Of a DNA stretch of 45,741 bases, positions 30,835-45,741 are shown piece by piece. The notes under the pieces were generated by a model. The model searched no databases. It was not told the origin of the DNA and saw nothing but the letters and a program-made list of their open reading frames with translations. Location: the NCBI GenBank assembly GCA_013298505.1, contig JAAFHY010000007.1, forward strand, positions 1 through 45,741, given 5' to 3'. Numbering within the stretch: the stretch's first letter is position 1; the number at the start of each line of letters is the position of its first letter. The stretch is from Cytophagales bacterium. Its GTDB lineage: Bacteria > Bacteroidota > Bacteroidia > Cytophagales > Cyclobacteriaceae. A program made the translations under genes and the position numbers.

Positions 30835-30868
30835 ATGCAAAACAGAAGTTTTTCTGATATTTGAAATC

Positions 30869-30899
30869 CAAAACTAGTAAAACCAACTACCATGACCAA
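30869..30899 (-). promoter_or_regulatory. Complete promoter for the dehydrogenase-like gene, overlapping the ridA start
   Basis: On the minus strand, TTG (30899-30897) and TAGTTTTG (30876-30869) are 20 bases apart, an ideal Bacteroidota promoter 34 bases before the ATG at 30834. Its -33 box lies within the first codons of the divergent ridA gene, so transcription of the two genes may interfere. Confidence 0.65.
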
Positions 30900-31272: not shown

Positions 31273-31279
31273 AAGCAGA

Positions 31280-32038
31280 TTAAAAGTTAGGCGACAATAA
31301 ATACTTTGCATAAAAATCGTCAATTGCTTTTACGGCATCTTCTGGTGTATCTACCAAGCTAAACAGGTCTAAATCTTCGGGGCTTATCATTTTTTCGGTA
31401 ACCAATACTTTTTTAATCCAGTCGATCATGCCCGCCCAAAACTTTTTGCCTACCAGCACAATAGGGAAGCGGCCAATTTTTTTGGTTTGAATTAACGTAA
31501 GCGCTTCGCTTAGTTCGTCAATCGTGCCAAACCCACCGGGCATGACAATAAAGCCTTGCGAATATTTTACGAAAATTACTTTGCGGACAAAAAAGTAATC
31601 GAACGTGATTAGTTTATCTGGGTCTATATAAATGTTTCCTTTTTGTTCGTGAGGCAAATAAATGTTTAAGCCTACCGATTTCCCGCCTGCCTTCTTGGCA
31701 CCTTTGTTTCCCGCCTCCATAATACCGGGACCTCCTCCAGTTATTACTCCATAGCCTTGGTGAACGAGACGCTCAGCAATTTCTTCGGCTTGCTTATAGT
31801 AGGGGTTGGTGGGCTTGATGCGTGCCGAACCAAAAATAGTAACGCATGGGCCGATCTTCGCCATTTTTTCGAAGCCCTCAACAAACTCGCTCATCACTTT
31901 AAAAATCACCCACGAGTCAGAGCTTTTTATCTCAGCCCAATCTTTGTCTTTAAATGCTTTGCGTATACGGTGTTCTTCTTCTAATGGTAGAGCAGCTACT
32001 GCGGTGGTCTTTTTTTTGGTAGTCGATTTTGCTTTCAT
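31280..32038 (-). CDS. LOG-family (TIGR00730) nucleotide 5'-monophosphate phosphoribohydrolase-like protein
   Basis: 252 residues. ITGGGPGIMEAGNKGAKKAGGKSVGLNIYLP is the Rossmann nucleotide-binding block and VMPGGFGTIDELSEALTLIQTKK holds the PGGxGTxxE motif of LOG proteins. VTIFGSARIKPTNPYY is the family opening, after a charged N-terminal extension of about 60 residues (KSTTKKKTTAVAALP). Family members cleave cytokinin-type or purine nucleoside monophosphates to base and ribose phosphate. Its upstream 100 bp are related to those of the YHS gene at 41417, described separately. Confidence 0.9.
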   Translation of the reverse strand: MKAKSTTKKKTTAVAALPLEEEHRIRKAFKDKDWAEIKSSDSWVIFKVMSEFVEGFEKMAKIGPCVTIFGSARIKPTNPYYKQAEEIAERLVHQGYGVITGGGPGIMEAGNKGAKKAGGKSVGLNIYLPHEQKGNIYIDPDKLITFDYFFVRKVIFVKYSQGFIVMPGGFGTIDELSEALTLIQTKKIGRFPIVLVGKKFWAGMIDWIKKVLVTEKMISPEDLDLFSLVDTPEDAVKAIDDFYAKYLLSPNF

Positions 32039-32140
32039 GTGTTAATATCTATTTCTTAGTGGTCACATGGAATGGCTTTGATTATCATGTCGTTGTGTGC
32101 AGTGTATCTTAATGACCATTTCATAGATTATGCCTTATCA
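32039..32140 (-). repeat. Shared upstream element, copy A (before the LOG gene)
   Basis: Read on the minus strand, this stretch runs into the LOG start codon and aligns with 41291-41416. Shared blocks in order are TATGAAATGG, CATTAA, GACATGATAATC (GAGATGTTAATC in copy B), GCCATTC, and a 13-base identity CATGTGACCACTA (32069-32057), then an A/T-rich run with TATTAA up to the ATG. Excluding an extra hairpin in copy B, roughly three quarters of positions match by hand. It contains a 22-codon frame (32124-32056) that begins MKW and ends CDH. This copy lacks the hairpin. Confidence 0.7.
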
Positions 32141-32222
32141 AGTAACAAGGTATAAAAATTTTTAGCATCATTAGTGCAAAGGCTGAGGAGCATACGGCAG
32201 TGATACAAACAGTTTGAATGTT

Positions 32223-32331
32223 CCCTCACCCCTCAAAAGTTATCTGTTAGCACATTCATTCTTTGCCCCTCTCCCCGCGGGAGAGGGGATCAAAAAGTTA
32301 CGTTGGCTTGCTAGCTTATTGGGGTGAGGGG
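32223..32331. repeat. CCCTCACCCC-type palindromic repeat
   Basis: Outer arms CCCTCACCCC (32223-32232) and GGGGTGAGGG (32321-32330) are perfect complements. Inside is a very stable hairpin, CCCCTCTCCC (32266-32275), loop CGC, GGGAGAGGGG (32279-32288). The CCCCTCTCCC...GGGAGAGGGG / GGGGTGAGGG pattern is a dispersed repeat known from many bacterial genomes. A decayed relative is at 22258-22361. It has no coding potential and sits behind the minus-strand epimerase gene. Confidence 0.8.
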
Positions 32332-32397
32332 TTCGAGCTTACAATCGGAACACGCCTCGACAAATTACAATCCATACCCATATTTAAAACAATAAGG

Positions 32398-33306
32398 CTA
32401 ACCTCTAACCAAAAGATTTGACAATGCACTTTTTAAAGTTGCATACTTAAATTGAAATCCTTCTTTTCGAATTTTTTCTGATGACACTTTACTTCCATTT
32501 AGAACCATAGTTGCCATTTCGCCCAAAACTAATTTCATTACAAAACCAGGAACTCTGAATAGCCCGAAGGCTCTTTTTAAAGCCACACCAATTGCTGTTG
32601 TTAGTTCTTCATTAGTAACCCAATCCGTTGCGGCATTGTATGGCCCTCTCATAAATTCTTTTTCAACAGCCATCACAAATAGCTCGCACAGGTCATCGAT
32701 ATGAATCCAACTTAGAAACTGTTTACCAGAGCCAAGCGGTGCGCCTAGCCCATAGCGAGCAGGTTTTACCATTTCCGCCAAAGCACCCCCCTTTTCACTA
32801 AGCACAATGCCTATGCGCAGTTTTACGAGTCTTATTCCTAGTGTTGAAATGCGATCGGTTTGCTTTTCCCACTCATGGGTTACCTCTGCTAAAAATCCTT
32901 TGCCTGCTGGGCTTTCTTCTGTGAATAGTTCGTCACCTAGTCCGAATCCATAATAGCCAATGGCTGACGCGCCTATGAAATTCTTTACGGTGTGATTTTC
33001 CTTTTTTAATGTTTCAAAAAGTAATTGGGTTGAATGCGTTCGGCTTTCTAAGATTTCTCTTTTTCGATTTTCAGTCCAACGCTTATCAGCTATGCCAGCA
33101 CCGGCCAAGTGAATGATGGTGTCAACGCCAGCTAATGAATTCGTATCAATGATTTTTTTTTCTACATCCCAAACAAAAGAAGGGATTGCCCCTGCTTTTT
33201 TACTTCTTCCTAAATGAACTACCTGATACCCTTTTTGAAGAAGTAATTCGGTAAGTCGTTTACCCACTAAGCCCGAAGCACCCGTTATTAAAATTTTATG
33301 GTTCAT
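32398..33306 (-). CDS. TIGR01777 family NAD(P)-dependent epimerase-like protein
   Basis: 302 residues of the extended SDR type (YfcH/SDR39U1). ILITGASGLVGKRLTELLLQKGYQV is the GxxGxxG nucleotide site; VDTIIHLAGAGIADKRWTENRKREILESR is the diagnostic TIGR01777 block; FIGASAIGYYG and PLGSGKQFLSWIHIDDL follow. The C-terminal 50 residues match DUF1731 (RVPGFVMKLVLGEMATMVLNGSKVSSEKI). Reaction is not established for the family. Single gene; divergent from the coiled-coil protein with 36 bp between the starts. Confidence 0.93.
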   Translation of the reverse strand: MNHKILITGASGLVGKRLTELLLQKGYQVVHLGRSKKAGAIPSFVWDVEKKIIDTNSLAGVDTIIHLAGAGIADKRWTENRKREILESRTHSTQLLFETLKKENHTVKNFIGASAIGYYGFGLGDELFTEESPAGKGFLAEVTHEWEKQTDRISTLGIRLVKLRIGIVLSEKGGALAEMVKPARYGLGAPLGSGKQFLSWIHIDDLCELFVMAVEKEFMRGPYNAATDWVTNEELTTAIGVALKRAFGLFRVPGFVMKLVLGEMATMVLNGSKVSSEKIRKEGFQFKYATLKSALSNLLVRG

Positions 33307-33312
33307 TATTTG

Positions 33313-33320
33313 TAGTTTTG
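33313..33320 (+). promoter_or_regulatory. -7 box (TAGTTTTG) of the coiled-coil protein gene
   Basis: Full TAnnTTTG match, 22 bases before the ATG at 33343. No TTG is found at the -33 distance, which falls inside the start of the divergent epimerase gene. Confidence 0.5.
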
Positions 33321-33342
33321 AAACAAAGAAACAACCGTAGCA

Positions 33343-33930
33343 ATGATTAAGTTTAGTTATACCATCGCATTTCTGCTAATCGCTCAACTAACAATTGGCC
33401 AAACCGTAAAAGTTAAAAATCAGCAACAGCGTTTAAAAGGCGAAAATATAGATGGCTTTGCCGTTGACGTAGAAGGTAAGAAAAGTGATGTGCAAGCCTC
33501 GCTAACCCGCTACCTGAAAGAAGTAGGAAAAGTGAAATTCCTTTCTTCTGATCCGCTGGTTATTACCGATGCTACTTTTGGTGGCAATGTATATGCCAAG
33601 CGACCTATCTATGCCAACGAGTTTGGTGTTCGCTACAATAGGGAAAGAGCACAGGCGCAAATAGATCTTACGCAACAAGCGCTTGATGCAGTTGACAAGC
33701 AATCGGTACGGTTTATTAATCAGGGAAAGGATTTGACTACGAAGCTTGCCAACAACGAACTAGAAAAAATACGATTGGAGAAAGCACTTGAGGCCAATAA
33801 ATTAGAAAACCTAGCTTTGAAAATAAGAATAGAGAATAATAAAAAGGCACAAGATTCTATTGCTACCGCAGCCGTGCAAATTAAGAAGGTAAAGGAAGTA
33901 CAGTTGGAGAAGTTGAGGAAGATTAATTGA
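33343..33930 (+). CDS. Exported coiled-coil protein of unknown function
   Basis: 195 residues with a signal peptide ending near TIGQT. The first half (about 20-100) looks globular: QQRLKGENIDGFAVDVEGKKSDVQASLTRYLKEVGKVKF...YAKRPIYANEFGVRYN. The second half is a long charged coiled coil of about 85 residues (RERAQAQIDLTQQALDAVD onward), rich in Lys, Glu and Leu and without proline. I do not recognise the family. A periplasmic or outer membrane location is likely. It ends six bases before the stop of the convergent lipoprotein gene. Confidence 0.7.
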   Translation: MIKFSYTIAFLLIAQLTIGQTVKVKNQQQRLKGENIDGFAVDVEGKKSDVQASLTRYLKEVGKVKFLSSDPLVITDATFGGNVYAKRPIYANEFGVRYNRERAQAQIDLTQQALDAVDKQSVRFINQGKDLTTKLANNELEKIRLEKALEANKLENLALKIRIENNKKAQDSIATAAVQIKKVKEVQLEKLRKIN

Positions 33931-33936
33931 AGTCGC

Positions 33937-34479
33937 TTAATAAACCACCTCTTGTTTTAACTTCCACTCATACGAGATGCTATCATAATAGGTGCCTTCG
34001 TTGGGCCACTGAATGTAAGCAGGCATTGAGATGAAGTTCCTTAATTTCCCTCTTACTAGTTCATCAAATAGAAAAGCTGATTTTACTAACTCGGATTCTG
34101 TCATCACAGGAGTTACAAACTCTTCTTTAAAATCTTCAAGCTTAAAGTTTGATTTAAGTTTGAAATGACCCGCTACACCTCTTATTTCGCTAGCAATAGA
34201 TGAAGGGCGACTTAGATAGAAATAATGTGTGCTATCTGGCGCTACATAATATTTCAATATTTTGAATTTTCGTGTTTGAGAAGAATAGAATGCGCGGTGT
34301 TTATCTTTAAATCGATCTTTCATTTCTGCATAGGGTGGTGCCATAAAAATATAAGTGATGATACTAGTTAGGATCTGATCTTGATCTTTTAAACTGTAGT
34401 AAGTAGATGGATCGTATTTGTCTTTTACTGTGCAACTAGCTAGTAAAGCGAGTGTAACTAACAGAAACTTGTTTCTCAT
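33937..34479 (-). CDS. Putative lipoprotein of unknown function
   Basis: 180 residues. MRNKFLLVTLALLASC is a lipoprotein signal with lipobox LLAS-C. The mature part opens with KDKYDPSTYYSLKDQDQILTSIITYIFMAPP and has FYSSQTRKFKILKYYVAPDSTHYFYLSRPS and GHFKLKSNFKLEDFKEEFVTPVMTE. No known domain is recognised. Probably a periplasmic-side lipoprotein. A hairpin upstream separates it from the beta-helix lipoprotein gene transcribed towards it. Confidence 0.7.
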   Translation of the reverse strand: MRNKFLLVTLALLASCTVKDKYDPSTYYSLKDQDQILTSIITYIFMAPPYAEMKDRFKDKHRAFYSSQTRKFKILKYYVAPDSTHYFYLSRPSSIASEIRGVAGHFKLKSNFKLEDFKEEFVTPVMTESELVKSAFLFDELVRGKLRNFISMPAYIQWPNEGTYYDSISYEWKLKQEVVY

Positions 34480-34490
34480 AAAGCAAAAAT

Positions 34491-34520
34491 AAAAAAAGGC
34501 CGGATATAAATCCGACCTTT
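34491..34520 (-). terminator. Terminator of the beta-helix lipoprotein gene
   Basis: Stem AAAGGTCGGAT / ATCCGGCCTTT with a short TTAT loop is followed on the minus strand by a run of T residues. It begins 22 bases past the stop of the gene at 34543-36501 and lies before the next minus-strand gene. Confidence 0.8.
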
Positions 34521-34542
34521 CCGTTGATAGAGTGTTGTTTTA

Positions 34543-36501
34543 TTACTTGGTGTAATCTGTTAATTGAGGATTCCAATTGGTCCAAGTAGCTGTCCAGTCG
34601 GTTGATCCAAAGGCTCCACGATAGGTTGGCGTAGTATCGAACCCTGTTAAGTTAGTAAAACTTGCACCAGTAGCTATAGTACCAGTAGCAGTTAAGGTTG
34701 GCGCAGTTAAAGGATCGAATATGTTAGCGTTTAACCCTATTGCATTCCATTTAGCAGCAACCGTATTGTTATCGCCAAACCATAATACTGGAGATTTGCC
34801 TGAGATTTGTTGCTCGCGGAAATTTCCAACTTGTCCAGTAGGGTTAGAAGAATCTGTATATCCGAAAACACCATTTGCAAAGGCACCAACGCCACCAGCT
34901 ACTGCTCTACCTCTTGGCGCATTAGGATGATTCGCTCCTGTAACCGTAGCAAAACCAGCTGTGATTTCATCAGCAGTAGCAGCAGTACCGAAACCATTTC
35001 CTCCCCATCCTTCAACACCTGCAAGAATGTTGTTCTTGAAAACTAAAGTTCCTGCATTTGCATTAGGTATAGCACCATCTAAAGTGTAATCTGTTCCAAG
35101 AGTACCATTTGTGCCAGGACGCTCATTATCAATAAAGACCCCATTAGGGAAACCTGTGATGATAGAGTTGTATATTTTTTGTTTTGCATTTCTGCGAATT
35201 TGCGCTCCATTTTGAAACTGAAGGTCAATCGTAGTGGCGTTAGTCGCTTTACCTCCAATAATAGTCATGTTAGAGAATTCAGCTGTTGTAGTTGGTGTAT
35301 TCTTAGAACCAGCTGCATCATTATCACACTCAAACCCATTTGATCCAGATTGATCGGCAATTGATGCTGCGCGAATAGCTAAGCCAAATTGCACCTTACC
35401 GCTATAGCCGTTATCAGTATCAAAATCATCATCAATTCCTTTTAATGAAATTAAGTGCGCAGCGTTTACAGTACCACCAAACCACTCGTATGAGTCATCG
35501 TTTGCATAAGTAACTTGAATGTAATCTAGAGTTGTTCCAGATCCAACGCTTCCTAACGTCAAGCCATTGATTTCTTGGTTAGGATTAATTGGATATCCAG
35601 CATATTCTATGCGAACATACTTTAATGTTCCTGAGTTGTCAGCCGCAATCGGAGAAGCACCACCGCCATGGAAGCCACCATAAGCACCTTCTAATTCTTC
35701 AATACCGTTCGTTCCTGTACTAGTTGAACCCTTAATATTATTAGCTGCTTGACCACAAATTACAAGACCTGCCCAGTCGCCAGGGGTGCGATTTCCCGGA
35801 GCTTGATCTGAAGTGAAAACAATAGGCTTCACGGCAGTACCAATAGCAATTATTTTGCTTCCTCTTTGTACAATCAATGCGCCACCTGGGGTTCCTTTTT
35901 TACCTAGGATAGTAGTACCAGCTTCAATAGTAAGAGTGGCAGTAGTTACAATTTCTGGCGCAATTCCTGGTCCGCCTGCTCCTGGTTTTTTGTCGCTACC
36001 TACACGAATGAATCCGTTAAGTCTATAGACTTTATCAGCAGTCCAAGTTGTATTTGTTAAAATATCCGTTGTTATTTCTACTACTTGTTTAGCCACCGCT
36101 GTAACCTTAACCAATACACTCGCTGATTTTTGTCCTTTTGAATCAGTTGCTTGAAAAGAAAAATTTACAATAGTTCCAATGGCCGCGTTCGCGGGTATAG
36201 TATAATTAAAAGTGTATTCAGGTGCAGTACCAGTAATTGCTTGATCCGGAAAAGCTGCGTCAGAAGCACCGTTAACTAAAATGGTAAGCGTCTTAGCTCC
36301 TTCGGGGGCGTTAACAGTAACTTTAGTTGTTACAGCCAAACCAGGCGTGTTTGATAATGCGGCACTTCCTACTGTAATAGTTGGTGCGGGCTTAGTGCTA
36401 TTGCTATCACTGCAAGAGCTAAGTAAGCCAAGGAAAGCAGCCACTGTTGCAATAGAAGCAACTCGAAGTGCCACACTTAGTTTTGATTTTGTTAGTTTCA
36501 T
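34543..36501 (-). CDS. Surface-type lipoprotein with a beta-helix fold
   Basis: 652 residues. The signal ends in LLSSC, giving a lipidated Cys followed by SDSNSTKP. Residues about 40-135 form a PKD/Ig-like domain (ITVGSAALSNTPGLAVTTKVTVNAP to SASVLVKV). The rest has short recurring turns typical of a right-handed parallel beta-helix: LTIEAGTTILGKKGTPGGALIVQRGSKIIA, NIKGSTSTGTNGIEELEG, YIQVTYANDDSYEWFGGTVNAAHL, MTIIGGKATNATTIDLQFQNG. No catalytic site is apparent. It lies directly downstream of a TonB-dependent receptor gene on the same strand, suggesting a partner that captures ligand at the surface, but with its own -7 box and a terminator between them. Confidence 0.75.
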   Translation of the reverse strand: MKLTKSKLSVALRVASIATVAAFLGLLSSCSDSNSTKPAPTITVGSAALSNTPGLAVTTKVTVNAPEGAKTLTILVNGASDAAFPDQAITGTAPEYTFNYTIPANAAIGTIVNFSFQATDSKGQKSASVLVKVTAVAKQVVEITTDILTNTTWTADKVYRLNGFIRVGSDKKPGAGGPGIAPEIVTTATLTIEAGTTILGKKGTPGGALIVQRGSKIIAIGTAVKPIVFTSDQAPGNRTPGDWAGLVICGQAANNIKGSTSTGTNGIEELEGAYGGFHGGGASPIAADNSGTLKYVRIEYAGYPINPNQEINGLTLGSVGSGTTLDYIQVTYANDDSYEWFGGTVNAAHLISLKGIDDDFDTDNGYSGKVQFGLAIRAASIADQSGSNGFECDNDAAGSKNTPTTTAEFSNMTIIGGKATNATTIDLQFQNGAQIRRNAKQKIYNSIITGFPNGVFIDNERPGTNGTLGTDYTLDGAIPNANAGTLVFKNNILAGVEGWGGNGFGTAATADEITAGFATVTGANHPNAPRGRAVAGGVGAFANGVFGYTDSSNPTGQVGNFREQQISGKSPVLWFGDNNTVAAKWNAIGLNANIFDPLTAPTLTATGTIATGASFTNLTGFDTTPTYRGAFGSTDWTATWTNWNPQLTDYTK

Positions 36502-36534
36502 TTGAATAAGGATTTTAGTTTTTTTTCAGTTGGG

Positions 36535-36542
36535 CAAAAGTA
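36535..36542 (-). promoter_or_regulatory. -7 box (TACTTTTG) of the beta-helix lipoprotein gene
   Basis: On the minus strand this reads TACTTTTG, a full TAnnTTTG match, 33 bases before the ATG at 36501. A TTG at -33 is not seen. Confidence 0.55.
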
Positions 36543-36607
36543 CCCTCTGTTTGTTATCTGAATGTTATCGTAAAGGGTATAAGCTGTTAAACTTGGAGTG
36601 TTAGTGC

Positions 36608-36640
36608 AAAAAAAAGCCCCGCATCTGCGAGGCTCTTTTA
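36608..36640 (-). terminator. Terminator of the TonB-dependent receptor gene
   Basis: On the minus strand AAAAGAGCCTCGCA, a two-base loop, then TGCGGGGCTTTTTTTT: a GC-rich stem followed by an uninterrupted T-run. It begins 16 bases past the receptor stop codon. Confidence 0.88.
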
Positions 36641-36655
36641 AAAGCGTTCTTACAA

Positions 36656-39424
36656 TTAAAACCGATACGAAATGCCTAGAGAGAATAATTGACCGGGTCT
36701 ATATTGTTGCACAATTGGATCTTTCACAGGATCATTATCACTGTCGAACGATCCATCATTGTTTCCATCTTGTAAGAGAGAAATAGGTTGGTTAAGTATA
36801 TCGGCTATACCGCCTTTAATCTGCAGCCTGTCTGATAACCTTTTACTAAAAGTCAGGTCAATCACATTTCTTGGCATCAAGTAAACGTCTGTATAGAGCG
36901 ATGATCCAACAAACGATATATTTCTACCAACCACATTGTAAAGAAGATTTACAGACCAACCTGTTGGCTCACTCGTATAGAACAAGCCTGCGTTGATTAC
37001 ATATGGGGCTTGTCCTTGAAGAGGTCTTTCGTTTGAAGTCCTTTGAGCGGCAAGCGCATCAGGTATTTTAACGGTGCTTGTGATTACTGTAGCATTAAAC
37101 ATTACATTTAGATTATTTAAAAATGCTGAACCAGTTAATCCATTGAGCGATTTTTTGATCTCCAGTTCTAATCCATATGCCTTTGCGGAGGTTGCATTTG
37201 CAAAAACTGCATTTTTTGTAACACCTTGAAAATCGATCACACTTTCGATTGGGTCTTGGAAATCTTTATAGAATGCACCAAATGTTATCAACTCGCCATT
37301 AGAAGGATAATATTCCCAACGCAAATCAAAATTTTGAATTCTAGCAGTTTTTAAACCAGGGGTTCCAATGGTAACAAAGTTAAAGTTGAAATCATAAAAA
37401 GTGAAGGGGGCAATCTCTCTAAATTCAGGTCTGTTTAATGTTTCTCCATATGCTGCACGCACCAACATTTTTTCATTAAAGTTATAGCTTAAATTGGCTG
37501 AAGGCAATACGCGTAAGACTTGTAAATCAGAATTAGCAGGGTTGCTTGATAAATCAAAACCATAAAGTCTTTGGGTATTATCTTCTACACGTACACCCGC
37601 ATCAAGTTTAAATTTAGAAAATGGAACAGAACCGATTATATAGTATGCAAGCAGCCGATTCGATGCAGAATAGCTATCTGATTTTTTTGTGTCTTCCCCA
37701 AGTAAAATACCATTTGCGTTATTAATATTCACATCATTAAAAACTTGACTGATTGGCAAATCAAGAATTGCTTGGCTGGTATTAATCGTTCTTACATAAC
37801 CAAGGTTCCGAGCACCGAATGTTCTGGATTTATCCTCGTAAAACACGCCAACCTTAACCTCTGGATTTTTCAATGGATTATCGCCCACATTAAATCGGTG
37901 TTTTATCGAAGCCCCAAAAGTTGTTGATGTTTCATCCAACTTTGAAAAAAACCGACCCAACCTCTCAGGAAGAACTCCAAACACAAATTGCAACTTTCCA
38001 TCATTTTTAGACACATACCTTCTGTAATCAGGCTGGTCGCGGTTTGTTTTGTTGTATCCCGCAACCCACTCGATAGAAGTTTGCTTTTTAAACAATTCGT
38101 GATTACCCATTAACTGGCCAGAATAAATACCTCTATAAATTTTATCAAAGCCTCCATTCTTTTCACCAAAACTCTGTGTAAGAACTCCTGTTCTATCAAC
38201 ATATTGATCATTGCTGCTTTGGTTTAATAGATTTTTAAAGTCGATTGAATGATTGGAATTGAATTTAAATGCCCAATTAAAAAGAACCCCTGTACGTACT
38301 TGTTGATTATACTGTTTATCTGCAAAGGCATTATTTTCTTGAATTGAACCGTTGGTATAATCGCTTCGGGTAACATCAAAAATTGAATACGAGTTGGAAT
38401 AATTAAGTGCGCTGATATTTCCTACTTCCACTTTACCTATTCTAAATCGTCTATTGAAAGTAAGTGTAAATCGCTGATCGGGGATGGCAATACTTTTTTG
38501 TGGAACCCAATCATTTCGAAGTGATCTTCCTGCAGACTCAAGGTCAGAACCTTGTGTGGTTTTTGCATCAGATGGAAAATTTGCTGGCAAGTCATAGTAG
38601 CCAGTATTAAAACCTGTGAAGTGTCCGCTGTTTTTTTGCTGTGAATAGAAATCACCCATGGTAGTACCCGCTCTAAACTGAGTGCTATAATCTAACACAA
38701 TGCTATTTTCCTCGGGAATGCTTTTTGTAAAAACTTTTACTACACCGCCTGCAAAATCTCCAGGTAAATCAGCAGCAGGGCTTTTGAAAACTAACATTTT
38801 ATCTAATTGTGAACTAGGCAAAGTGGCAAATGAAAAGGAACGAACATCAGTCTCTACACTAGGGGCATAAACGTTATGCAGCATTACTGGATTATATCTC
38901 TCAGATAAACCTCTCACTTGCACAAATTGATCTCCTCTGATTGTAATTCCAGGTACTCGTCTCAATACTTGAGCCGCATCTCTATCCAACGATTTACTAA
39001 TTTGCTCAGCGGTAATCCCCACCACCACTACCTTGGCTTCTCTCAAAGATTTAACCAAATCAAAATCAGTATCTGTTTGGCGAGCTCCTTGCACCACCAC
39101 CTCTTCTAATTCAGAAACATCTTCATGGAGTTCTATATTAATGCTAATCTTTTTGGCGGTTTCTACAATTACGTTTGGTATTGAGTGCGGCTTATAAGTA
39201 ACCGAAGATATTTGCAACGTATAGGTGCCTTCTTTAACATTATTGATGATAAAATTACCTTCAACGTCAGTTGCCGACCCTTGTGTTGTTCCTTGAATGA
39301 CCACATTTGCTCCAATAACAGCTTCACCTGTTTTAGAATCTTTAATGATACCAGCTATGGTTCCCTGTGCTTGGGCAAAGTAGTTAGAAAGAATAAGGGC
39401 GGCTAAAAAGTAAGTCTTTTGCAT
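36656..39424 (-). CDS. TonB-dependent outer membrane receptor with carboxypeptidase-regulatory-like N-terminus
   Basis: 922 residues, signal peptide ending near FAQAQ. Residues about 20-100 form the CarboxypepD_reg-like domain (GTIAGIIKDSKTGEAVIGANVVIQG). The plug follows: EQISKSLDRDAAQVLRRVPGITIRGDQFVQVRGLSERYN and LPGDFAGGVVKVFTKSIPE. A 22-strand-type barrel occupies the rest, including AAYGETLNRPEFREIAPF, and ends with SLGISYRF, an aromatic terminal residue as expected. It imports a ligand across the outer membrane with TonB energy. It is not obviously SusC-like: no SusD gene is adjacent; instead a beta-helix lipoprotein gene follows. Ligand unknown. Confidence 0.92.
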   Translation of the reverse strand: MQKTYFLAALILSNYFAQAQGTIAGIIKDSKTGEAVIGANVVIQGTTQGSATDVEGNFIINNVKEGTYTLQISSVTYKPHSIPNVIVETAKKISINIELHEDVSELEEVVVQGARQTDTDFDLVKSLREAKVVVVGITAEQISKSLDRDAAQVLRRVPGITIRGDQFVQVRGLSERYNPVMLHNVYAPSVETDVRSFSFATLPSSQLDKMLVFKSPAADLPGDFAGGVVKVFTKSIPEENSIVLDYSTQFRAGTTMGDFYSQQKNSGHFTGFNTGYYDLPANFPSDAKTTQGSDLESAGRSLRNDWVPQKSIAIPDQRFTLTFNRRFRIGKVEVGNISALNYSNSYSIFDVTRSDYTNGSIQENNAFADKQYNQQVRTGVLFNWAFKFNSNHSIDFKNLLNQSSNDQYVDRTGVLTQSFGEKNGGFDKIYRGIYSGQLMGNHELFKKQTSIEWVAGYNKTNRDQPDYRRYVSKNDGKLQFVFGVLPERLGRFFSKLDETSTTFGASIKHRFNVGDNPLKNPEVKVGVFYEDKSRTFGARNLGYVRTINTSQAILDLPISQVFNDVNINNANGILLGEDTKKSDSYSASNRLLAYYIIGSVPFSKFKLDAGVRVEDNTQRLYGFDLSSNPANSDLQVLRVLPSANLSYNFNEKMLVRAAYGETLNRPEFREIAPFTFYDFNFNFVTIGTPGLKTARIQNFDLRWEYYPSNGELITFGAFYKDFQDPIESVIDFQGVTKNAVFANATSAKAYGLELEIKKSLNGLTGSAFLNNLNVMFNATVITSTVKIPDALAAQRTSNERPLQGQAPYVINAGLFYTSEPTGWSVNLLYNVVGRNISFVGSSLYTDVYLMPRNVIDLTFSKRLSDRLQIKGGIADILNQPISLLQDGNNDGSFDSDNDPVKDPIVQQYRPGQLFSLGISYRF

Positions 39425-39715
39425 GTCAAGTTATTTGACTGCAAAGGTCGCTTGGGCATATTACCTCATCTGGTCGGCAGTGTTATGAAATTGTTAAGGG
39501 AGGGGTTTTATTGCTCCCTAAAATAGGCTGATTGTATAGCAGAATATCCTACTTGATAAGCCTATCGCAATTGAAAATGAATAAGTTAAGCTATGCGGCC
39601 ACATAACATTCCGTTGATGATCGCTTAAAGAAAGTAATCTTTGGTTAACCTCAAAAATTCAAAATTAGATCAAAACTCTTTTAAACCTTCAATATTTTGA
39701 ACCTTAAATTTTGAA
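39425..39715. other. 291-bp intergenic region between receptor start and moxR end
   Basis: The receptor side (minus) carries GACCTTTG, one base off the -7 consensus, about 20 bases before the receptor ATG. At 39496-39520 a small hairpin TAGGGAG/TTAAGGGAG-like pair occurs. Near moxR, ATTCAAAATT (39657-39666) and AATTTTGAAT (39707-39716) are perfect complements and could form a weak terminator for moxR. I see no gene. Confidence 0.4.
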
Positions 39716-40705
39716 TCATTTGCTAATCGGCACCTTCTGCAACAACACTTTCACAATGTCTGCCGTCTTTACATTGTCGGCTTCGGCTTCATAGTTCAAC
39801 AATATGCGGTGGTTCATTACATCCAATGCCACTTCTTTGATGTCTTCTGGCAACACATAGTCGCGGCCATCCATATAGGCAATGGCTTTGCTGGCTAGGT
39901 TGAGGTTGATGCTGGCACGGGGCGAGGCACCAAATTGAATATACTGCGCTTCGTGGTCGAGTTTGTATTCTTTCGGTTTGCGCGTGGCGGTTACGAGTTC
40001 GATGATGTATTTCTCTAGCGATTCTGAAATTTTCACTTTGTTCACTTCATCACGTATCGCAAAAATATCTTCTTTGGTAAGGACGGTATCAACCTCATAT
40101 CCAAACTGCATGTTGGATATTCTGCGCATAATTTCGAGTTCCTCTTCTTTGGTAGGATAATTTACAAAAACCTTCATCATAAAGCGGTCTACCTGTGCTT
40201 CGGGCAACGGATACGTGCCCTCTTGGTCAACCGGGTTTTGGGTAGATAAAACTAAAAACGGGCGATCGAGTTTAAAAGTAGTTTCACCAATGGTTACTTG
40301 TTTTTCTTGCATGGCCTCTAGCAAAGCCGATTGCACTTTTGCTGGCGAGCGGTTGATCTCATCGGCCAAAATGATGTTGGCGAAAATGGGGCCTTTCTTT
40401 ACCTCAAATTTTCCATCCTTCTGGTTATAAATCATGGTACCCACCAAGTCGGCAGGGAGCAAATCGGGTGTAAACTGAATGCGTTGGAAATCTAAGTGCA
40501 GCACTTTGGCCAATGTTGATATGGTAAGGGTTTTGGCCAAGCCCGGAACGCCTTCTAACAACACATGCCCATTGGTAAAAAGCCCTACCAAAAGGCGATT
40601 GACCATATAATTTTGGCCTACCACTACTTTAGCTACTTCGCTAAATACGGATTTGATTTTTTGTTGGTGTGCCTGATGTAGTTCGGAAGTGGACGTAAAT
40701 GCCAT
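39716..40705 (-). CDS. MoxR-family AAA+ ATPase
   Basis: 329 residues. LEGVPGLAKT is Walker A, ILADEINRSPAKVQSALLEAMQE is Walker B with the MoxR signature, FLVLSTQNPVDQEGTYPLPEAQVDRFMMKV holds sensor 1, and SPRASINLNLASKAIAYMDGRDYV the lid with sensor 2. MoxR ATPases act as chaperones that activate metalloenzymes or membrane protein complexes. They usually stand before DUF58 and von Willebrand (BatA-type) genes; here the next genes on this strand are unrelated, so the partners are elsewhere. A -33/-7 candidate upstream (TTG-N20-TAATATTG) borrows its TTG from a dispersed repeat. Confidence 0.95.
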   Translation of the reverse strand: MAFTSTSELHQAHQQKIKSVFSEVAKVVVGQNYMVNRLLVGLFTNGHVLLEGVPGLAKTLTISTLAKVLHLDFQRIQFTPDLLPADLVGTMIYNQKDGKFEVKKGPIFANIILADEINRSPAKVQSALLEAMQEKQVTIGETTFKLDRPFLVLSTQNPVDQEGTYPLPEAQVDRFMMKVFVNYPTKEEELEIMRRISNMQFGYEVDTVLTKEDIFAIRDEVNKVKISESLEKYIIELVTATRKPKEYKLDHEAQYIQFGASPRASINLNLASKAIAYMDGRDYVLPEDIKEVALDVMNHRILLNYEAEADNVKTADIVKVLLQKVPISK

Positions 40706-40759
40706 AGAATTCTGTCTTTCAAGTTAAACGGACTGCAATATTAAAGATTTGTGGTTTTG

Positions 40760-40783
40760 CCACCAAGGCACGAAGGCACGAAG
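40760..40783. repeat. CACGAAGGCACGAAG-type short repeat
   Basis: CCACCAAGGCACGAAGGCACGAAG contains a tandem GGCACGAA unit. Phrases like this are a dispersed repeat found in many bacterial genomes, often near CACATAG-type repeats as here (40820-40912). It lies about 55 bp upstream of moxR. Confidence 0.5.
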
Positions 40784-40819
40784 TTTTGCTAAAGCTATTT
40801 TATGATTTCTATTGATTTG

Positions 40820-40912
40820 AACCACATAGAAACATAGTAGTCACACGAGGGTTACATAATTAACGGAAGACAGCAACGATAAAGTTCTATGTACTTATCT
40901 GTCAATGTGGTT
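40820..40912. repeat. CACATAG-type imperfect inverted repeat touching the antitoxin-like gene
   Basis: The left arm AACCACATAGAAACATAG (40820-40837) has a relative on the opposite strand at 40912-40888 (AACCACATTGACAGAT, then a short insert, then CATAG). The right arm covers the last codons and stop of the gene at 40895-41146. The arrangement resembles the CACATAG/CTATGTGG dispersed repeats seen in Bacteroidota and other phyla. Confidence 0.55.
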
Positions 40913-41146
40913 AAAGAGGGAGAGCCATTGAGAAGTTCGTTTTCTCACTTCTGCATCTGTTAAGTACTGGCCGTTTGCTATCTGCAACTCACCTTCACGA
41001 ATGGCAGCAATCTGTTTTTTTGAAAGTAATAGTAATTCTGCTTTTGACTCATCTTTCAGTAGGCTATAAACATCTTTCAAAAAGCCTTCATCCTGCGAAT
41101 TCTTGATTTTTGAAATCAGTTTTCTCTTTACCTCGGCAGTTGACAT
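40895..41146 (-). CDS. Orphan antitoxin-like small protein
   Basis: 83 residues. The middle and end, LLLLSKKQIAAIREGELQIANGQYLTDAEVRKRTSQWLSLF, match the pattern of small Bacteroidota antitoxin-like proteins normally found before ParE/RelE-type toxins (LSxEQxxAIxEGxxQIxxGxxxTxExVxxxxxxW). The N-terminal half is a helical region (MSTAEVKRKLISKIKNSQDEGFLKDVYSLL). No toxin gene follows on the minus strand; a repeat stands there instead, and the last residues NHIDR and the stop are read from its arm. The C-terminus is thus probably remodelled. Family call is tentative. Confidence 0.6.
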   Translation of the reverse strand: MSTAEVKRKLISKIKNSQDEGFLKDVYSLLKDESKAELLLLSKKQIAAIREGELQIANGQYLTDAEVRKRTSQWLSLFNHIDR

Positions 41147-41290
41147 TTTTATACTTTTTTTAGCGGATTAAAGTGAGTAAAACCCAGGCTATCTTCATAC
41201 AGCTGTCTTTTCTGTTCCTTCCCATTACTTCTGCAATCTATGCGACAAACCCTTTGCTAACGAAAACCCATCTTTACATCTTTCGTGTAA

Positions 41291-41416
41291 GCCTTTATGA
41301 AATGGCCATTAAAAAGATTTTCACTAACCGAGATGTTAATCAGGCCATTCGATGCCTGCATGCCGAAATGCTACTGCGGCATGCAGACATGTGACCACTA
41401 AAAAAATATTAAACAA
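41291..41416 (+). repeat. Shared upstream element, copy B (before the YHS gene), with inserted hairpin
   Basis: It aligns with copy A at 32140-32039 and, like it, runs directly into a start codon, here ATG 41417. Copy B has about 37-40 extra bases with perfect 10-bp arms CTGCATGCCG (41356-41365) and CGGCATGCAG (41377-41386) around an 11-base loop. An open frame of 34 codons (41297-41401) starts MKWPLKRF and ends KCYCGMQTCDH; the hairpin encodes the Cys-rich part. Because the substitutions between copies A and B are not concentrated in third codon positions and a one-base indel shifts the frame, I read this as a regulatory or mobile DNA element rather than a proven gene. Confidence 0.65.
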
Positions 41417-41884
41417 ATGAAACAAACCCAATCATTAACTCTCGCCCTGCTGCTTACCTTTTCGGTAGGCGTTATTTTTGCCCAAACCGATGAGGCGCGC
41501 AAAAAGAATTTTAATATTAAAAAAAATATTGCCATAGAAGGCTACGATGCAGTAAGCTACTTTGACAACAAACCCCTTGAAGGGAAAAAAGAGTATTCGT
41601 TGCTCTATCGTGGAGTTACCTATTTGTTTAGCTCGCAAACTAACCTTGCAAAATTTAAGGCAGCGCCCGAAAAGTATGAGCCTGCCTATGGCGGTTGGTG
41701 CGCTTATGCCATGGGCGAAACTGGAGAGAAAGTAAAGATTGACCCAGAGACATTTAAAATTATTGACAACAAACTTTATCTTTTTTATAATTTTTGGGGC
41801 ACTAATACGCTCACTAGTTGGAACAAAACCGAAAAGCTCCTTAAAGCAAAAGGCGACCAAAATTGGAAAAAAATTATCCCGTAA
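41417..41884 (+). CDS. Exported YHS domain protein
   Basis: 155 residues, signal peptide ending near VIFAQ. IEGYDAVSYFDNKPLEGKKEY opens the YHS domain, and YLFSSQTNLAKFKAAPEKYEPAYGGWCAYAMGETG closes it, with the single Cys in GGWCAYAMG. YHS domains are associated with metal transport and oxygenase proteins; stand-alone exported forms have no settled role but may bind metal. The extra C-terminal part (YNFWGTNTLTSWNKTEKLLKAKGDQNW) is usual for this subgroup. DinB follows after 52 bp. Confidence 0.9.
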   Translation: MKQTQSLTLALLLTFSVGVIFAQTDEARKKNFNIKKNIAIEGYDAVSYFDNKPLEGKKEYSLLYRGVTYLFSSQTNLAKFKAAPEKYEPAYGGWCAYAMGETGEKVKIDPETFKIIDNKLYLFYNFWGTNTLTSWNKTEKLLKAKGDQNWKKIIP

Positions 41885-41936
41885 GGGCAAAGAAAAAATA
41901 ACTGAATAAACTCCTACCTTTACAGCATTTAATAAT

Positions 41937-42458
41937 ATGCAACTTTCATCGGCAGCCCGCACCATTTTAAATCAATTGTCTACACTGGTTACTCAGTTAA
42001 GCGATAGCGAATTTGTATTGCCATCAAAGGCGTTGAGCAATTCAACCATTGGGCAGCACCTGCGCCACACGCTCGAGTTTTTTATTTGTTTAGAACAAGG
42101 TTATTCAAAAGGGCTTGTTAACTATGACAAGCGCAACCACGATAAGTTGATTGAAACAGATCGGTTTATTGCCCTTGGAGCCATGCAACGGATATCGGAT
42201 TTTTTAGGCGCAAACGTAATAGATCAAGACCTTAAATTGGAAGTAGGCTACGAACCCGAAAACGAAGAGTCGATAATTATACAAACCAATTATTACCGAG
42301 AACTCACCTACAATATTGAGCATGCGGTGCATCACATGGCTATTATGAAAATAGGTATTAAAGAGGTGGCTCCTGCGGTTTTGTTGCCAGCTAATTTTGG
42401 GGTGGCAATATCAACCATCAGGTATCAGCAACAGCAATCTTTTGTTACGGCTGGCTAG
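41937..42458 (+). CDS. DinB family protein
   Basis: 173 residues forming a four-helix bundle. The metal-binding His residues are visible as IGQHLRH (helix 2) and IEHAVHHMAIMKIG (helix 4). DinB-like proteins include thiol transferases and damage-inducible metalloproteins; this one cannot be placed further. A near-consensus -7 box, TACCTTTA, stands at 41915-41922. The next gene starts nine bases after the stop. Confidence 0.85.
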   Translation: MQLSSAARTILNQLSTLVTQLSDSEFVLPSKALSNSTIGQHLRHTLEFFICLEQGYSKGLVNYDKRNHDKLIETDRFIALGAMQRISDFLGANVIDQDLKLEVGYEPENEESIIIQTNYYRELTYNIEHAVHHMAIMKIGIKEVAPAVLLPANFGVAISTIRYQQQQSFVTAG

Positions 42459-42467
42459 TTAAACGAT

Positions 42468-43490
42468 TTGGCAATCAAGAATTTTTTTGTAAAACTCTTC
42501 AATTGGGAATATTGGCCATTTGGCATTATTCAGTTTCCTATTTTCTTTTTGTGGATTTGGTACGCCTTCAAAGAACGATCTCTTTTTTATTTCTCTGCTT
42601 CCAATCCAGGGATTTTAACTGGCGGCATGATGGGCGAATCAAAATTTGAAGTGCTACAATTAGTGCCTGATTCGGTAAAGCCAAAAACCATTTTAATCAG
42701 CTTGCCTGCAACTCTTCAAGATGTACTCCGCTCACTGAACGAAAACAATCTTGCACTTCCGCTAATTTTTAAGCCCGATCTGGGTGAGCGCGGTTGGATG
42801 GTGCGTAAGATAAATTCTGAACAAGAAATTGAACAGTATCTTTCTGAAATTAAAATAGATTTTATTGCGCAAGAGTTAGTAAGCCTTCCTCTCGAATTTG
42901 GTGTATACTATATCCGGTTTCCGAACGAAGAAAATGGATTTGTCAATTCCATTACCATGAAGGAATTCTTGTTTATAGAAGGCGATGGAAAAAGCACTGT
43001 TGAAGAATTAATTTTTGATAAAGACAGGGCAAGGCTGCAATGGGATATGCTAGAGAAGGTTTATGAAAATCGCCTTGCAGAAATTTTGCCAATGGGAAAA
43101 CGAATCGAATTAGTATCGATCGGAAATCATTGCTTGGGAACTACGTTTTTAAATGCCAATCACTTGATTACACCTAAACTATCAAGCGCTTTTGATCGAA
43201 TTAGTAAACAGGTAAAAGGTTTTTATTTTGGCAGGTACGATTTACGCTGTGCAACGCTGCAAGACTTAGAAGATGGCAACGTAATGGTTGTAGAGCTAAA
43301 CGGCTGCGGTGCAGAGCCTGCCCACATTTATCAACCGGGCGCATCACTTTGGCGAGGTGTTAGCGATCTAATCACTCATTGGAAAAACCTGTATCGGGTA
43401 AGTAAAGAAAACCATCAGCGAGGCGTGCCTTATCTTTCGTTTCAAGAAGGCAAGGTCATTTATAAAAAATTTAAATCGGTAAAGGCATAA
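42468..43490 (+). CDS. Membrane-anchored ATP-grasp-like protein
   Basis: 340 residues, starting with TTG (no ATG in frame before residue 54). A membrane segment lies near residues 14-33 (EYWPFGIIQFPIFFLWIWYAF). The soluble part resembles ATP-grasp ligases: FKPDLGERGWMVRKI (ATP-binding Lys strand), FIAQELVSLPLEFGVYYIRFP, and FYFGRYDLRCATLQDL with VVELNGCGAEPAHIYQPG (the D-R-x(n)-E-x-N metal-site pattern). Such proteins join a carboxylate to an amine or thiol; D-Ala-D-Ala ligase-like is the usual label, but substrate is unknown. Nine bases after DinB, so probably co-transcribed. Confidence 0.75.
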   Translation: MAIKNFFVKLFNWEYWPFGIIQFPIFFLWIWYAFKERSLFYFSASNPGILTGGMMGESKFEVLQLVPDSVKPKTILISLPATLQDVLRSLNENNLALPLIFKPDLGERGWMVRKINSEQEIEQYLSEIKIDFIAQELVSLPLEFGVYYIRFPNEENGFVNSITMKEFLFIEGDGKSTVEELIFDKDRARLQWDMLEKVYENRLAEILPMGKRIELVSIGNHCLGTTFLNANHLITPKLSSAFDRISKQVKGFYFGRYDLRCATLQDLEDGNVMVVELNGCGAEPAHIYQPGASLWRGVSDLITHWKNLYRVSKENHQRGVPYLSFQEGKVIYKKFKSVKA

Positions 43491-43523
43491 GTCATACACG
43501 CTACTAATAGCTTCTGGTTTTTG

Positions 43524-43531
43524 TATTTTTG
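43524..43531 (+). promoter_or_regulatory. -7 box (TATTTTTG) before the LysE-type gene
   Basis: Full TAnnTTTG match. Only six bases lie between it and the ATG at 43538, so a transcript from it would be leaderless or nearly so. No TTG at -33. An in-frame TTG at 43529 lies inside the box and is an unlikely start. Confidence 0.4.
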
Positions 43532-43537
43532 TCTTTC

Positions 43538-44152
43538 ATGTTGGCTTATATCCAAGTCTTTCTTGTCGGGTTGTTGTTTAGTTTTCTGGGTTCGATTCCG
43601 CCTGGCACACTGAATGTTTCCGTTCTTCAACTTGGCCTTCAAAAAAAAGTGGCTACGGCACTTCGGTTTGCACTAGCGGTTTCTATTATTGAATATCCCT
43701 ACGCATGGCTGGCTGTAGAATTTGAAAGCTGGCTTACCTCTTCTCCCCTTATTATTGAAAATTTTCAGCTTATTACTGCAGTAGCGATGACGAGCCTTGG
43801 TGCATTCACACTCTGGACTTCTCACAAACCTTCTGCCTTTTCGCTAAAATTTAACGAAAGCGGTTTCAGGCGTGGTATTGTACTCAGCCTTTTAAACCCG
43901 ATGGCAATTCCATATTGGGTAGGCGCCACCGCTTATTTTAAGGCGCAAGGCTGGCTCATTCTTTCTACGAATGGCTTAGTGCATAGCTATGTACTTGGTA
44001 CCTCGGTTGGGGTCATGCTTCTCTTAATACTTTTCATTTTTGCGGCTAGTTGGTTAGCCAGGTACGTTCAGCAAAATAGATTTATTAAACTACTGCCTGG
44101 TGTAGTTATGCTGTTATTAGGATTGTATGCTTTTGCTAAGTATTTATTCTAA
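43538..44152 (+). CDS. LysE/RhtB family exporter
   Basis: 204 residues from ATG 43538, six membrane segments. FLGSIPPGTLNVSVLQLGLQKKVATALRFALAVSIIEY is the LysE-family first block (with a PPGT(L)N core) and GIVLSLLNPMAIPYWVG the second (NP in TM4). It exports amino acids or similar small metabolites from the cytoplasm; substrate unknown. It precedes purM by 57 bp. Confidence 0.88.
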   Translation: MLAYIQVFLVGLLFSFLGSIPPGTLNVSVLQLGLQKKVATALRFALAVSIIEYPYAWLAVEFESWLTSSPLIIENFQLITAVAMTSLGAFTLWTSHKPSAFSLKFNESGFRRGIVLSLLNPMAIPYWVGATAYFKAQGWLILSTNGLVHSYVLGTSVGVMLLLILFIFAASWLARYVQQNRFIKLLPGVVMLLLGLYAFAKYLF

Positions 44153-44209
44153 TGCGTCAAAAATCATTTATGATTTTGGATTGTAATTGCCACCTTTGTT
44201 GGATAAACT

Positions 44210-45382
44210 ATGACTGGATCTGACCGATATAATCAACGAGGGGTTTCTGCTTCTAAAGAAGATGTGCATGAAGCCATCAAGAATATAGACAAAGGCTTAT
44301 TTCCAAAGGCGTTTTGTAAAATCGTGCCCGATTTATTGGCGGGCGATTCTTCCTATTGCACCGTAATGCATGCCGATGGTGCCGGCACCAAATCATCGCT
44401 GGCTTACATTTACTGGAAAGAGACAGGCGACCTTAGTGTTTGGAAAGGCATTGCGCAAGACGCGATCATTATGAATGTAGATGACCTGTTGTGCGTTGGC
44501 GCTACAGGGCCTATTTTACTTTCATCTACGATTGGTAGAAATAAAAATAAAATTCCGGGCGAAGTGATAAGCACGATTATCAGCGGAACAGAAGAAGTAT
44601 TAGAAATGCTTCGATCACACGGAATGAACATCATTAGCACGGGCGGTGAAACGGCCGATTTAGGAGATTTGGTAAGAACGATTATTGTGGATAGCACGGT
44701 AACTGCTCGGATGAGGCGGAGTGAAGTAATCGACAATAGCAATATAAAAGCAGGCGATGTGATAGTGGGCCTTGCCTCGTATGGAAAAGCCAGCTACGAG
44801 CAAGAGTACAATGGAGGGATGGGCAGCAATGGATTAACCTCATCCCGCCACGATGTTTTTTGCAAAGACTATGCGGTGAAATACCCTGAGTCGTACGATT
44901 CTTCTATCCCAACGGAATTGGTTTATTCTGGAAAATACAGAGTGACCGACTCATATACCAATTCGCCTCTCAACATTGGCAAGCTAGTACTTTCACCAAC
45001 GCGCACGTATGCACCCATTGTCATTTCATTGTTGAAAGAACTTCACGGGCAAATCAACGGCATGGTGCATTGTAGCGGTGGTGCGCAAACCAAAGTATTG
45101 CATTTTATTGAAGGGCTTCACGTTATTAAAGACAACCTGTTTGAAATACCACCACTTTTTAAACTAATACAAACTGAGAGTAGCACGAAATTGAAGGAGA
45201 TGTACAAAGTGTTTAACATGGGGCATCGAATGGAAATTTATTTACCCAAAGAGTTCGCACAAGTTGTAATAGATATAGCACTTTCATTTGGAATTGATGC
45301 CAAAATTATTGGTCGAGTTGAAGCCTCAGGCAAAAAGCAAGTTACACTAAAGACTGGGGAAGGAGAACTTGTATATAACTAG
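44210..45382 (+). CDS. purM: Phosphoribosylformylglycinamidine cyclo-ligase (AIR synthase)
   Basis: 390 residues. YNQRGVSASKEDVHEAI, then VMHADGAGTKSSLAYIYWKE and DAIIMNVDDLLCVGATGPILLSSTIGRNK match the AIR synthase N-terminal domain; ISTGGETADLGDLVRTIIVDSTV is the second block, and GLASYGKASYEQEYNGGMGSNGLTSSR starts the C-terminal domain. The enzyme forms the imidazole ring in purine synthesis, using ATP, in the cytoplasm. It resembles the longer Bacteroidota type of PurM. Its stop is ten bases from the stop of the convergent DUF2721 gene. Confidence 0.93.
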   Translation: MTGSDRYNQRGVSASKEDVHEAIKNIDKGLFPKAFCKIVPDLLAGDSSYCTVMHADGAGTKSSLAYIYWKETGDLSVWKGIAQDAIIMNVDDLLCVGATGPILLSSTIGRNKNKIPGEVISTIISGTEEVLEMLRSHGMNIISTGGETADLGDLVRTIIVDSTVTARMRRSEVIDNSNIKAGDVIVGLASYGKASYEQEYNGGMGSNGLTSSRHDVFCKDYAVKYPESYDSSIPTELVYSGKYRVTDSYTNSPLNIGKLVLSPTRTYAPIVISLLKELHGQINGMVHCSGGAQTKVLHFIEGLHVIKDNLFEIPPLFKLIQTESSTKLKEMYKVFNMGHRMEIYLPKEFAQVVIDIALSFGIDAKIIGRVEASGKKQVTLKTGEGELVYN

Positions 45383-45392
45383 AGACCCCATT

Positions 45393-45741
45393 TCAAATCT
45401 TCAAATCATCACCGATATCTTTTAACTGGATGGCTAGCGCATGGGTAGAAATCATAATCTCCCGCAGTGACATCCCCAAAGAAATCATCAACGAGATAAG
45501 CGAAGCTCCAAAAATATATTTTGCAATTAGCAGTTCGCCATAAAACAACGAGAACATACACAGCACGCTAAGAAACAATGCGAAGATGCTTAGCATTTGC
45601 ATATCACGAATTAACCGAACGCGTAATTTCAAACTTTTAATTTGCTCGGCTACGTTGGTGTCGTGATTGTCTTTGTATTGCGCAGCGAGTTTTCTAATTA
45701 ATGCGGCCACTGCCAAAAACCGATTGGTATAAGCAAGCAGC
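45393..45741 (-). CDS. DUF2721 family membrane protein (5' partial)
   Basis: The frame runs off the window end on the minus strand; reading back gives LLAYTNRFLAVAALIRKLAAQY, the core motif of DUF2721 proteins (AYTNRFLALANLIRxL), so the in-frame TTG at 45716 is not the start. QIKSLKLRVRLIRDMQMLSIFALFLSVLCMFSLFYG and LISLMISLGMSLREIMIST follow, giving two or three membrane segments in view. Function is unknown for the family. Inner membrane location is expected. Confidence 0.85.
   Translation of the reverse strand, partial: LLAYTNRFLAVAALIRKLAAQYKDNHDTNVAEQIKSLKLRVRLIRDMQMLSIFALFLSVLCMFSLFYGELLIAKYIFGASLISLMISLGMSLREIMISTHALAIQLKDIGDDLKI

Follow-up and report, generated by a model that had tools for sequence, protein, structure and literature searches.

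The locus analyzed here raises a simple question: why do two genes of different families share related DNA that runs right up to their start codons? In the window, by which we mean the whole 45,741-nt stretch of Cytophagales DNA that was analyzed, one such stretch precedes a YHS-domain gene (41291-41416, plus strand) and the other a LOG-type gene (32140-32039, minus strand). The original prediction held that the two are homologous, that they keep the same orientation and place relative to the start codon, and that their genes belong to different families; all of this was confirmed, the genes matching PF04945 and PF03641, respectively. Mismatch-free matches to the blocks TATGAAATGGYCATTAA and CATGTGACCACTAA lie at 41296 and 41388 on the plus strand and at 32125 and 32069 on the minus strand, and no others were found in the window. 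Searching the genome with the YHS stretch turned up further copies. One of them, at C1:250812-250898, matches the YHS copy with E = 4.3e-15 and the LOG copy with E = 9.2e-11, and thereby ties the two stretches together far beyond chance; used as a query against its own genome, it found four other copies, YHS and LOG among them (E = 6.5e-16, 4.3e-15, 4.1e-12 and 9.2e-11). R1, a covariance model derived from 49 copies of the short form, has seven matches in this genome, which also carries one 3' fragment (L006, G000:C138:6282-6312). This fragment has GTGGTCAC in place of GTGACCAC and precedes an alpha/beta-hydrolase-like gene.

The element spans about 85-92 nt (about 120-127 nt in a long form), from one ATG to the next, and its second (right) ATG is usually the start codon of the gene. 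Its plan, from 5' to 3', is ATG-A-AAT-NNNN, a loop, N'N'N'N'-ATT-C-CAT-GTG-ACC, about 20 A-rich nucleotides, TTAACAC and ATG-AA. Two helices can be drawn within it: P1, in which ATGA-AAT-NNNN pairs with N'N'N'N'-ATT-C-CAT, and P2, in which CAT-N-TG pairs with the CA-N'-ATG that includes the start codon. Because the central CAT is common to both, the outer (lower) part of P1 and P2 are mutually exclusive. The element has no terminal inverted repeats; both tips instead pair with the middle, the left one in P1 and the right one in P2. The loop of P1 varies from 3 nt (L086/L090) to more than 60 nt across copies, and in tandem copies the intervening ATG is common to both units. In the window, the two copies and their genes are placed as follows:

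41297..41416, plus strand: long-form copy preceding the YHS gene, 120 nt counted from the left ATG up to, but not including, the start codon
41297..41307, plus strand: P1 5' arm of the YHS copy, ATGAAATGGCC
41343..41350, plus strand: P1 3' arm of the YHS copy, GGCCATTC
41351..41387, plus strand: extra hairpin of the YHS copy (long form), 37 nt, arms 41356-41365 and 41377-41386
41388..41393, plus strand: central CATGTG of the YHS copy, the 5' strand of P2, its CAT able to pair with the left ATG or the start codon
41414..41419, plus strand: P2 3' strand of the YHS copy including the start codon, CAAATG (consensus CACATG)
41417..41884, plus strand: YHS-domain gene (ORF; PF04945, E 1.1e-9), its start codon being the right ATG of the element
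32039..32124, minus strand: short-form copy preceding the LOG gene, 86 nt (R1 match, E 4.9e-15)
32114..32124, minus strand: P1 5' arm of the LOG copy, ATGAAATGGTC
32067..32076, minus strand: P1 3' arm of the LOG copy, GCCATTCCAT
32064..32069, minus strand: central CATGTG of the LOG copy, the 5' strand of P2
32036..32041, minus strand: P2 3' strand of the LOG copy, CACATG, including the LOG start codon (32038-32036)
31280..32038, minus strand: LOG-type gene (Lysine_decarbox / SLOG; ORF; PF03641, E 3.1e-32)

The YHS copy is matched by R1 over 41297-41422 (E 4.6e-5). Its 37-nt hairpin is absent from the LOG copy, and its P2 is weakened, since CAAATG replaces the consensus CACATG. From the empty site of another copy (see below), the left ATG of the YHS copy is taken to be the original start codon of the gene. 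The same ATG opens a 34-codon frame (41297-41398, ending CMPKCYCGMQTCDH), which is probably due to chance because it is absent from the four other copies that were translated. A leader peptide (uORF) was considered for the copies at start codons and rejected: the left-ATG frames are short and stop before the right ATG in 112 of 124 copies, none of the 124 reads in frame into the gene, and the peptides of five translated copies differ. Farther upstream of the LOG gene (32210-32344) lies a second dispersed repeat, GC-rich and palindromic and of the CCCTCACCCC..GGGGTGAGGG type, with relatives on contigs C162, C24, C147, C197 and C185 of the same genome and in G060.

Covariation supports both helices, as shown by the analysis of aligned copies that the original prediction had proposed. 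Among the 49 copies from the genus, 94.5% of P1 cells and 98.3% of P2 cells are paired. P1 contains 18 double-change cells compared with 3.0 in shuffles (none of 500 as high), and P2 contains three (one of 500 shuffles as high). For pairs changed on both sides, 24 of 500 shuffles were as high for P1 and 158 of 500 for P2. The 43 distinct matches from 40 phylum-search loci, an alignment that was fitted to the covariance model and includes four weak extra matches, gave 90 double-change cells in P1 and P2 together compared with 26 in shuffles (none of 500 as high); the number of changed pairs showed no excess over shuffles (307 of 500 as high), unlike the cell counts and scores, and sliding the helix partners abolished pairing. 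Finally, the variable base of P2 and its partner form a Watson-Crick pair in 209 of 219 copies, compared with a mean of 148 after shuffling (none of 5000 as high), 33 unreadable copies having been left out.

The family extends across the phylum. Of 62 genomes from the genus, 49 have R1 matches, up to 26 apiece. A search of 395 genomes drawn from the phylum and representing 170 genera, run with stricter filters and scoring at most 10 candidates per genome, gave matches in 37 genomes and 17 genera. The genome collection contains at least 115 stretches that fit an exact pattern for the 3' part. Among the 80 matches listed, all come from Bacteroidota-named records (Cyclobacteriaceae, Bacteroidales, Chitinophagales, Aquimarina, Winogradskyella and Algoriphagus being represented) except two contigs of one bin (L147 and L202), which are Alphaproteobacteria by record title. 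Named carriers include Algoriphagus alkaliphilus DSM 22703, Sediminibacterium goheungense DSM 28323, Cyclobacterium plantarum and Aquimarina algiphila. BLAST matches, fragments included, number 43 and 38 in the complete genomes G185 and G278. The exact 3' pattern had no match among viral contigs, and neither a search of phages with one copy nor a search of plasmids with two copies gave a match, searches that divergent copies might escape. No family of Rfam 15 matched over the copies (window 30000-45741 at E up to 5; six loci at E up to 1). If the reading given below is right, the family would span the phylum, reach about 30 copies in certain genomes and yet have no matching Rfam model here.

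The copies are bound to start codons. Among 249 distinct fetched copies with an intact right end (nine truncated hits and one without ATG were left out), the end coincides with the ATG of an ORF in 193, an ORF being a frame of 50 codons or more or one still open where the source sequence stops. The others are followed by a tandem copy (23), an ORF starting within 200 nt (22), no ORF within that distance (9) or the end of the contig (2). For the pattern-scan loci within this set, ATGAA was imposed on the right end and an ORF was not. Searches made in other ways gave similar pictures: 32 of 40 copies from the phylum search (39 from other genera and one from this genus) start an ORF, as do 26 of 29 copies in G185 and 28 of 32 in G278 whose right end lies within the fetched BLAST loci. 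The genome searches proposed with the original prediction therefore returned many copies in one orientation and tied to start codons, rather than copies scattered without bias or absent from relatives.

This placement does not mirror the supply of ATGAA. Outside the copies, 3649 such sites were counted in 880,082 bases (the window plus the 115 pattern loci, under a simple ORF rule), of which 190 lie at starts, 496 in intergenic DNA and 2963 in coding DNA. The youngest copies in G185, at least 93% identical to the query, are already at starts in 12 of 13 cases, and harm to coding sequences cannot explain the shortage of intergenic copies. For these two reasons, the bias probably arises in the insertion step itself, and selection against coding insertions may contribute to it. 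In addition, we followed the frame of the left ATG in 258 copies. It closes in 256 of them and reaches the end of the source in two, and in 20 of the 256 that frame is open for 40 codons or more upstream. Four open-frame copies were read, and at L137 and L295 the upstream gene's frame extends into the element. Only L387, a minus-strand copy in G388, has frames of more than 300 codons open on both sides among the 258 copies. There, five residues separate the end of an RND transporter domain from the left ATG, and the right ATG opens an outer-membrane efflux protein in the same frame, so that the locus is either a fused gene split by the element or two neighbours.

The element is also mobile. 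An exact empty site was observed at one locus, where G024 has a whole long-form element and G010 and G075 read AAACAA followed directly by ATGAAAATC (also AAACAA followed by ATGAAAATCTATATGAAG), the flanks being 94-97% identical; the more distant relative G074 also lacks the element there. A copy-number difference at a second locus adds to this single empty site: at the ATG of a gene that is presumably M28-peptidase-like, G010 has two different tandem copies and its G074 ortholog has one. In the complete genome G185, 13 copies that are 94-100% identical to the query copy stand before different genes. Nine of ten loci there (all except L405) could be parsed and have the same 90-nt boundaries, and among 72 comparisons of their 150-nt flanks only two matched, over 19 and 27 bases. 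None of 29 LOG orthologue loci inspected (130 nt upstream) carries the element, these loci being too diverged for a clean empty site, and L282 was rejected as an empty-site candidate since its relatives carry a decayed copy.

Diverse genes, patchy presence and recent bursts lead us to read this family as a mobile element that encodes no enzyme, inserts in the sense orientation at ATGA(A) start codons and supplies a new ATG, a reading to which we assign a probability of roughly 85%. Of the possibilities first offered, that of a dispersed repeat preferring start sites was the right one, and it can now be sharpened in these terms. The element would insert at the ATGA(A) of a start codon, with its left ATG being the old start of the gene, and its terminal ATG, preceded by an A-rich stretch, would take over as start codon. 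A gene hit at its start codon would survive in this way, since it receives a substitute start codon and leader from the element. No mobilizing gene or autonomous copy was found, and among the matches in G185, G278 and G376 there was neither a copy with an internal gene nor a split copy; an enzyme acting in trans may recognize the folded element, and pairing of the central CAT with ATG may mark both of its ends. The fixed direct repeat is ATGA(A), because right ends with ATGAAT or ATGAG still have ATGAAA at the left, and the bases after ATGA(A) at the left end belong to the element.

The left flank fits this arrangement. A is found at -12 in 79 of 140 copies and at -11 in 81 of 140, frequencies similar to those of control starts (88 of 176 and 95 of 176), as would be the case if the left ATG were an old start codon; leaders of Flavobacterium johnsoniae are enriched in A from -14 to -11, according to PMC6847099. 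A pyrimidine directly precedes the left ATG in 112 of 140 copies vs 108 of 176 control starts. The element itself has C at -3 and T at -6 in its consensus, and its own leader is less than ideal by F. johnsoniae preferences, A being favourable at both positions in that organism (PMC6847099).

If this reading is true, transposition uses the start codon as a landing site without necessarily destroying the gene, and the translation of many genes could change at once in hosts lacking Shine-Dalgarno sequences. It also raises the question of what distinguishes a start codon from any other ATGAA. One tentative answer, possible rather than likely, is that insertion recognizes start codons as such, e.g., via the initiating mRNA or the exposed sense strand: the CAU guide would first engage the AUG of the target and afterwards the one left behind, which would impose a switch that masks the start codon. 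In folding calculations, the mean unpaired probability of the start codon was 0.25 for element genes (n = 191) vs 0.42 for control starts (n = 138), which suggests that copies overall lower start-codon accessibility and so mask the start codon. The YHS and LOG copies do not show such masking, as their values are 0.42 and 0.43.

Which enzyme moves the element bears on a sub-case of the mobile-element reading, namely that a Y1 transposase mobilizes an IS200/IS605-type derivative in the form of single-stranded DNA, CAT being the guide that would pair with the cleavage sites. Several features recall such elements: a fixed short target with no variable target duplication (ATGA(A) at both ends and an empty site), one orientation, a hairpin, and an internal sequence complementary to both ends. 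Y1 matches also occur in 50 of 62 genus genomes, including G024, and number 13 in G185 when fragments are included. On the other hand, two genomes rich in the element gave no Y1 match that passed the cut-off (G017, 26 R1 matches) or none at all (G267, 10 R1 matches); the ends of the element were absent from all 30 tnpA loci examined, and the base before the left ATG does not track the guide base (p = 0.32). These findings weaken the proposal; since G024 and G185, the two genomes with demonstrated recent movement, do have Y1 genes, we regard it as unlikely rather than rejected. IS110 was rejected as a general mobilizer: PF02371 is present in three of nine element-bearing genomes and missing from six, including G278.

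Mobile repeats that are small and non-autonomous are familiar in themselves; what is new here is the target and the anatomy. IS200/IS605 elements and their short non-autonomous derivatives share with the present element a short fixed target, the lack of a variable target duplication, one orientation, hairpins and internal guides that pair with the cleavage sites. The element differs in having one main hairpin at its left tip and one central sequence complementary to both ends, in lying at start codons, and in that no link to a Y1 transposase was found. MITEs with terminal inverted repeats are likewise short, non-coding, present in many copies and accompanied by empty sites; in contrast, the present element has no such repeats, and its end repeat is ATGA(A) rather than a variable target duplication. 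The REP/BIME palindromes of RAYT transposases are also short hairpin repeats in many copies, but they lie between genes, whereas the element ends in a start codon in the sense orientation. The HEARO RNA of IscB elements (RF02033) is similar in being structured and RNA-like and is said to integrate at ATGA/GTGA; it differs in its length of about 300 nt and its tie to a nuclease gene, and had no Rfam match over element copies. No ATGA was found in the accessible text of PMC9755519 on HEARO. The Flavo-1 RNA motif (RF01705) resembles the element in being widespread in Bacteroidota and computationally inferred, but it too had no Rfam match over the copies, and PMC9723704 describes it as lacking a clear orientation relative to transcripts. 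No description of the element was found in the open-licence PMC literature searched, nor in the accessible parts of PMC6847099, PMC9755519, PMC2864571 and PMC9723704.

A different origin would be a host regulon, in which a translational control element (a riboswitch-like or protein-bound leader) is kept for its usefulness and spread by rare duplication. The pairing of start codons, which is more frequent in element genes than in controls, speaks for such a leader, and certain gene families (which we take to be serC, rpmH, rfbA, hisB, metF and asd) recur among the element genes. In rpmH copies from three close relatives, the stem and the 3' part are kept and the loop varies. In serC-like genes (L174, L201, L204, L223 and L234, from Aquimarina, Winogradskyella and two further records), the 3' half is kept and P1 has mostly decayed. 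These inherited copies look constrained, which would also fit a host function, and the serC-like ones are possibly domesticated; inherited rplI copies, for their part, decay. A regulon origin is nevertheless improbable: the genes behind the copies are diverse in function, the LOG orthologues inspected lack the element, close relatives have an exact empty site and near-identical copies precede different genes, the P1 loop can shrink to 3 nt, unlike that of an aptamer, and the two window copies show no lowered start-codon accessibility in folding. The suggestion of a regulatory RNA or operator of a regulon holds in part: structure is supported by covariation and the start codon pairs more often, whereas the window copies lack masking, and diverse genes, presence and absence among orthologues and near-identical copies speak against a regulon origin. 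Certain copies may have come to serve the host in gene control.

Another idea put forward at first, that of a mobile promoter persisting wherever it drives the downstream gene, would account for copies lying upstream of genes in the sense orientation. However, TAnnTTTG, the -7 box of Bacteroidota promoters, occurs within four of 157 copies and in the upstream 100 nt of 28, and the element runs up to the start codon itself, so that a promoter is unsupported and this explanation very improbable. The least credible alternative is a tiny intron-like RNA excised from the mRNA to restore the old leader: precise removal between two ATGAs would recreate the empty-site sequence, and L387 has an RND transporter on one side and an outer-membrane channel on the other, both in a single frame, so that it may sit within a fused gene, but efficient removal from RNA would allow many coding copies, and although coding sites make up most of the available ATGAA (2963 of 3649), at most the ambiguous L387 among 258 copies lies well inside a gene. 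The element is also far smaller than known self-splicing introns.

Some variation among the copies may be noted. The long-form hairpin, of the CCTGCRTGCCG..GGCATGCAGG type, is found at the same place in several genomes (L051, L057, L071, L084, L103 and L298), and in the set of loci compared for it, it occurred only within elements. Other palindromes lie at the P1/P2 junction (L098, CCCGATAGCTATCGGG; L189; L299) or in the P1 loop (L184), as if these two places gathered hairpins. In a subfamily comprising L040, L077, L096, L102, L152 and L173, tandem G.A mismatches in P1 (AATGAGCAT with ATGCGAATT) replace Watson-Crick pairs. At L143 (CAISJJ010000517.1), three tandem units precede a semialdehyde-dehydrogenase-like gene, and neighbouring units differ in their P2 letters, with CATGTG/CACATG in one and CATATG/CATATG in another.
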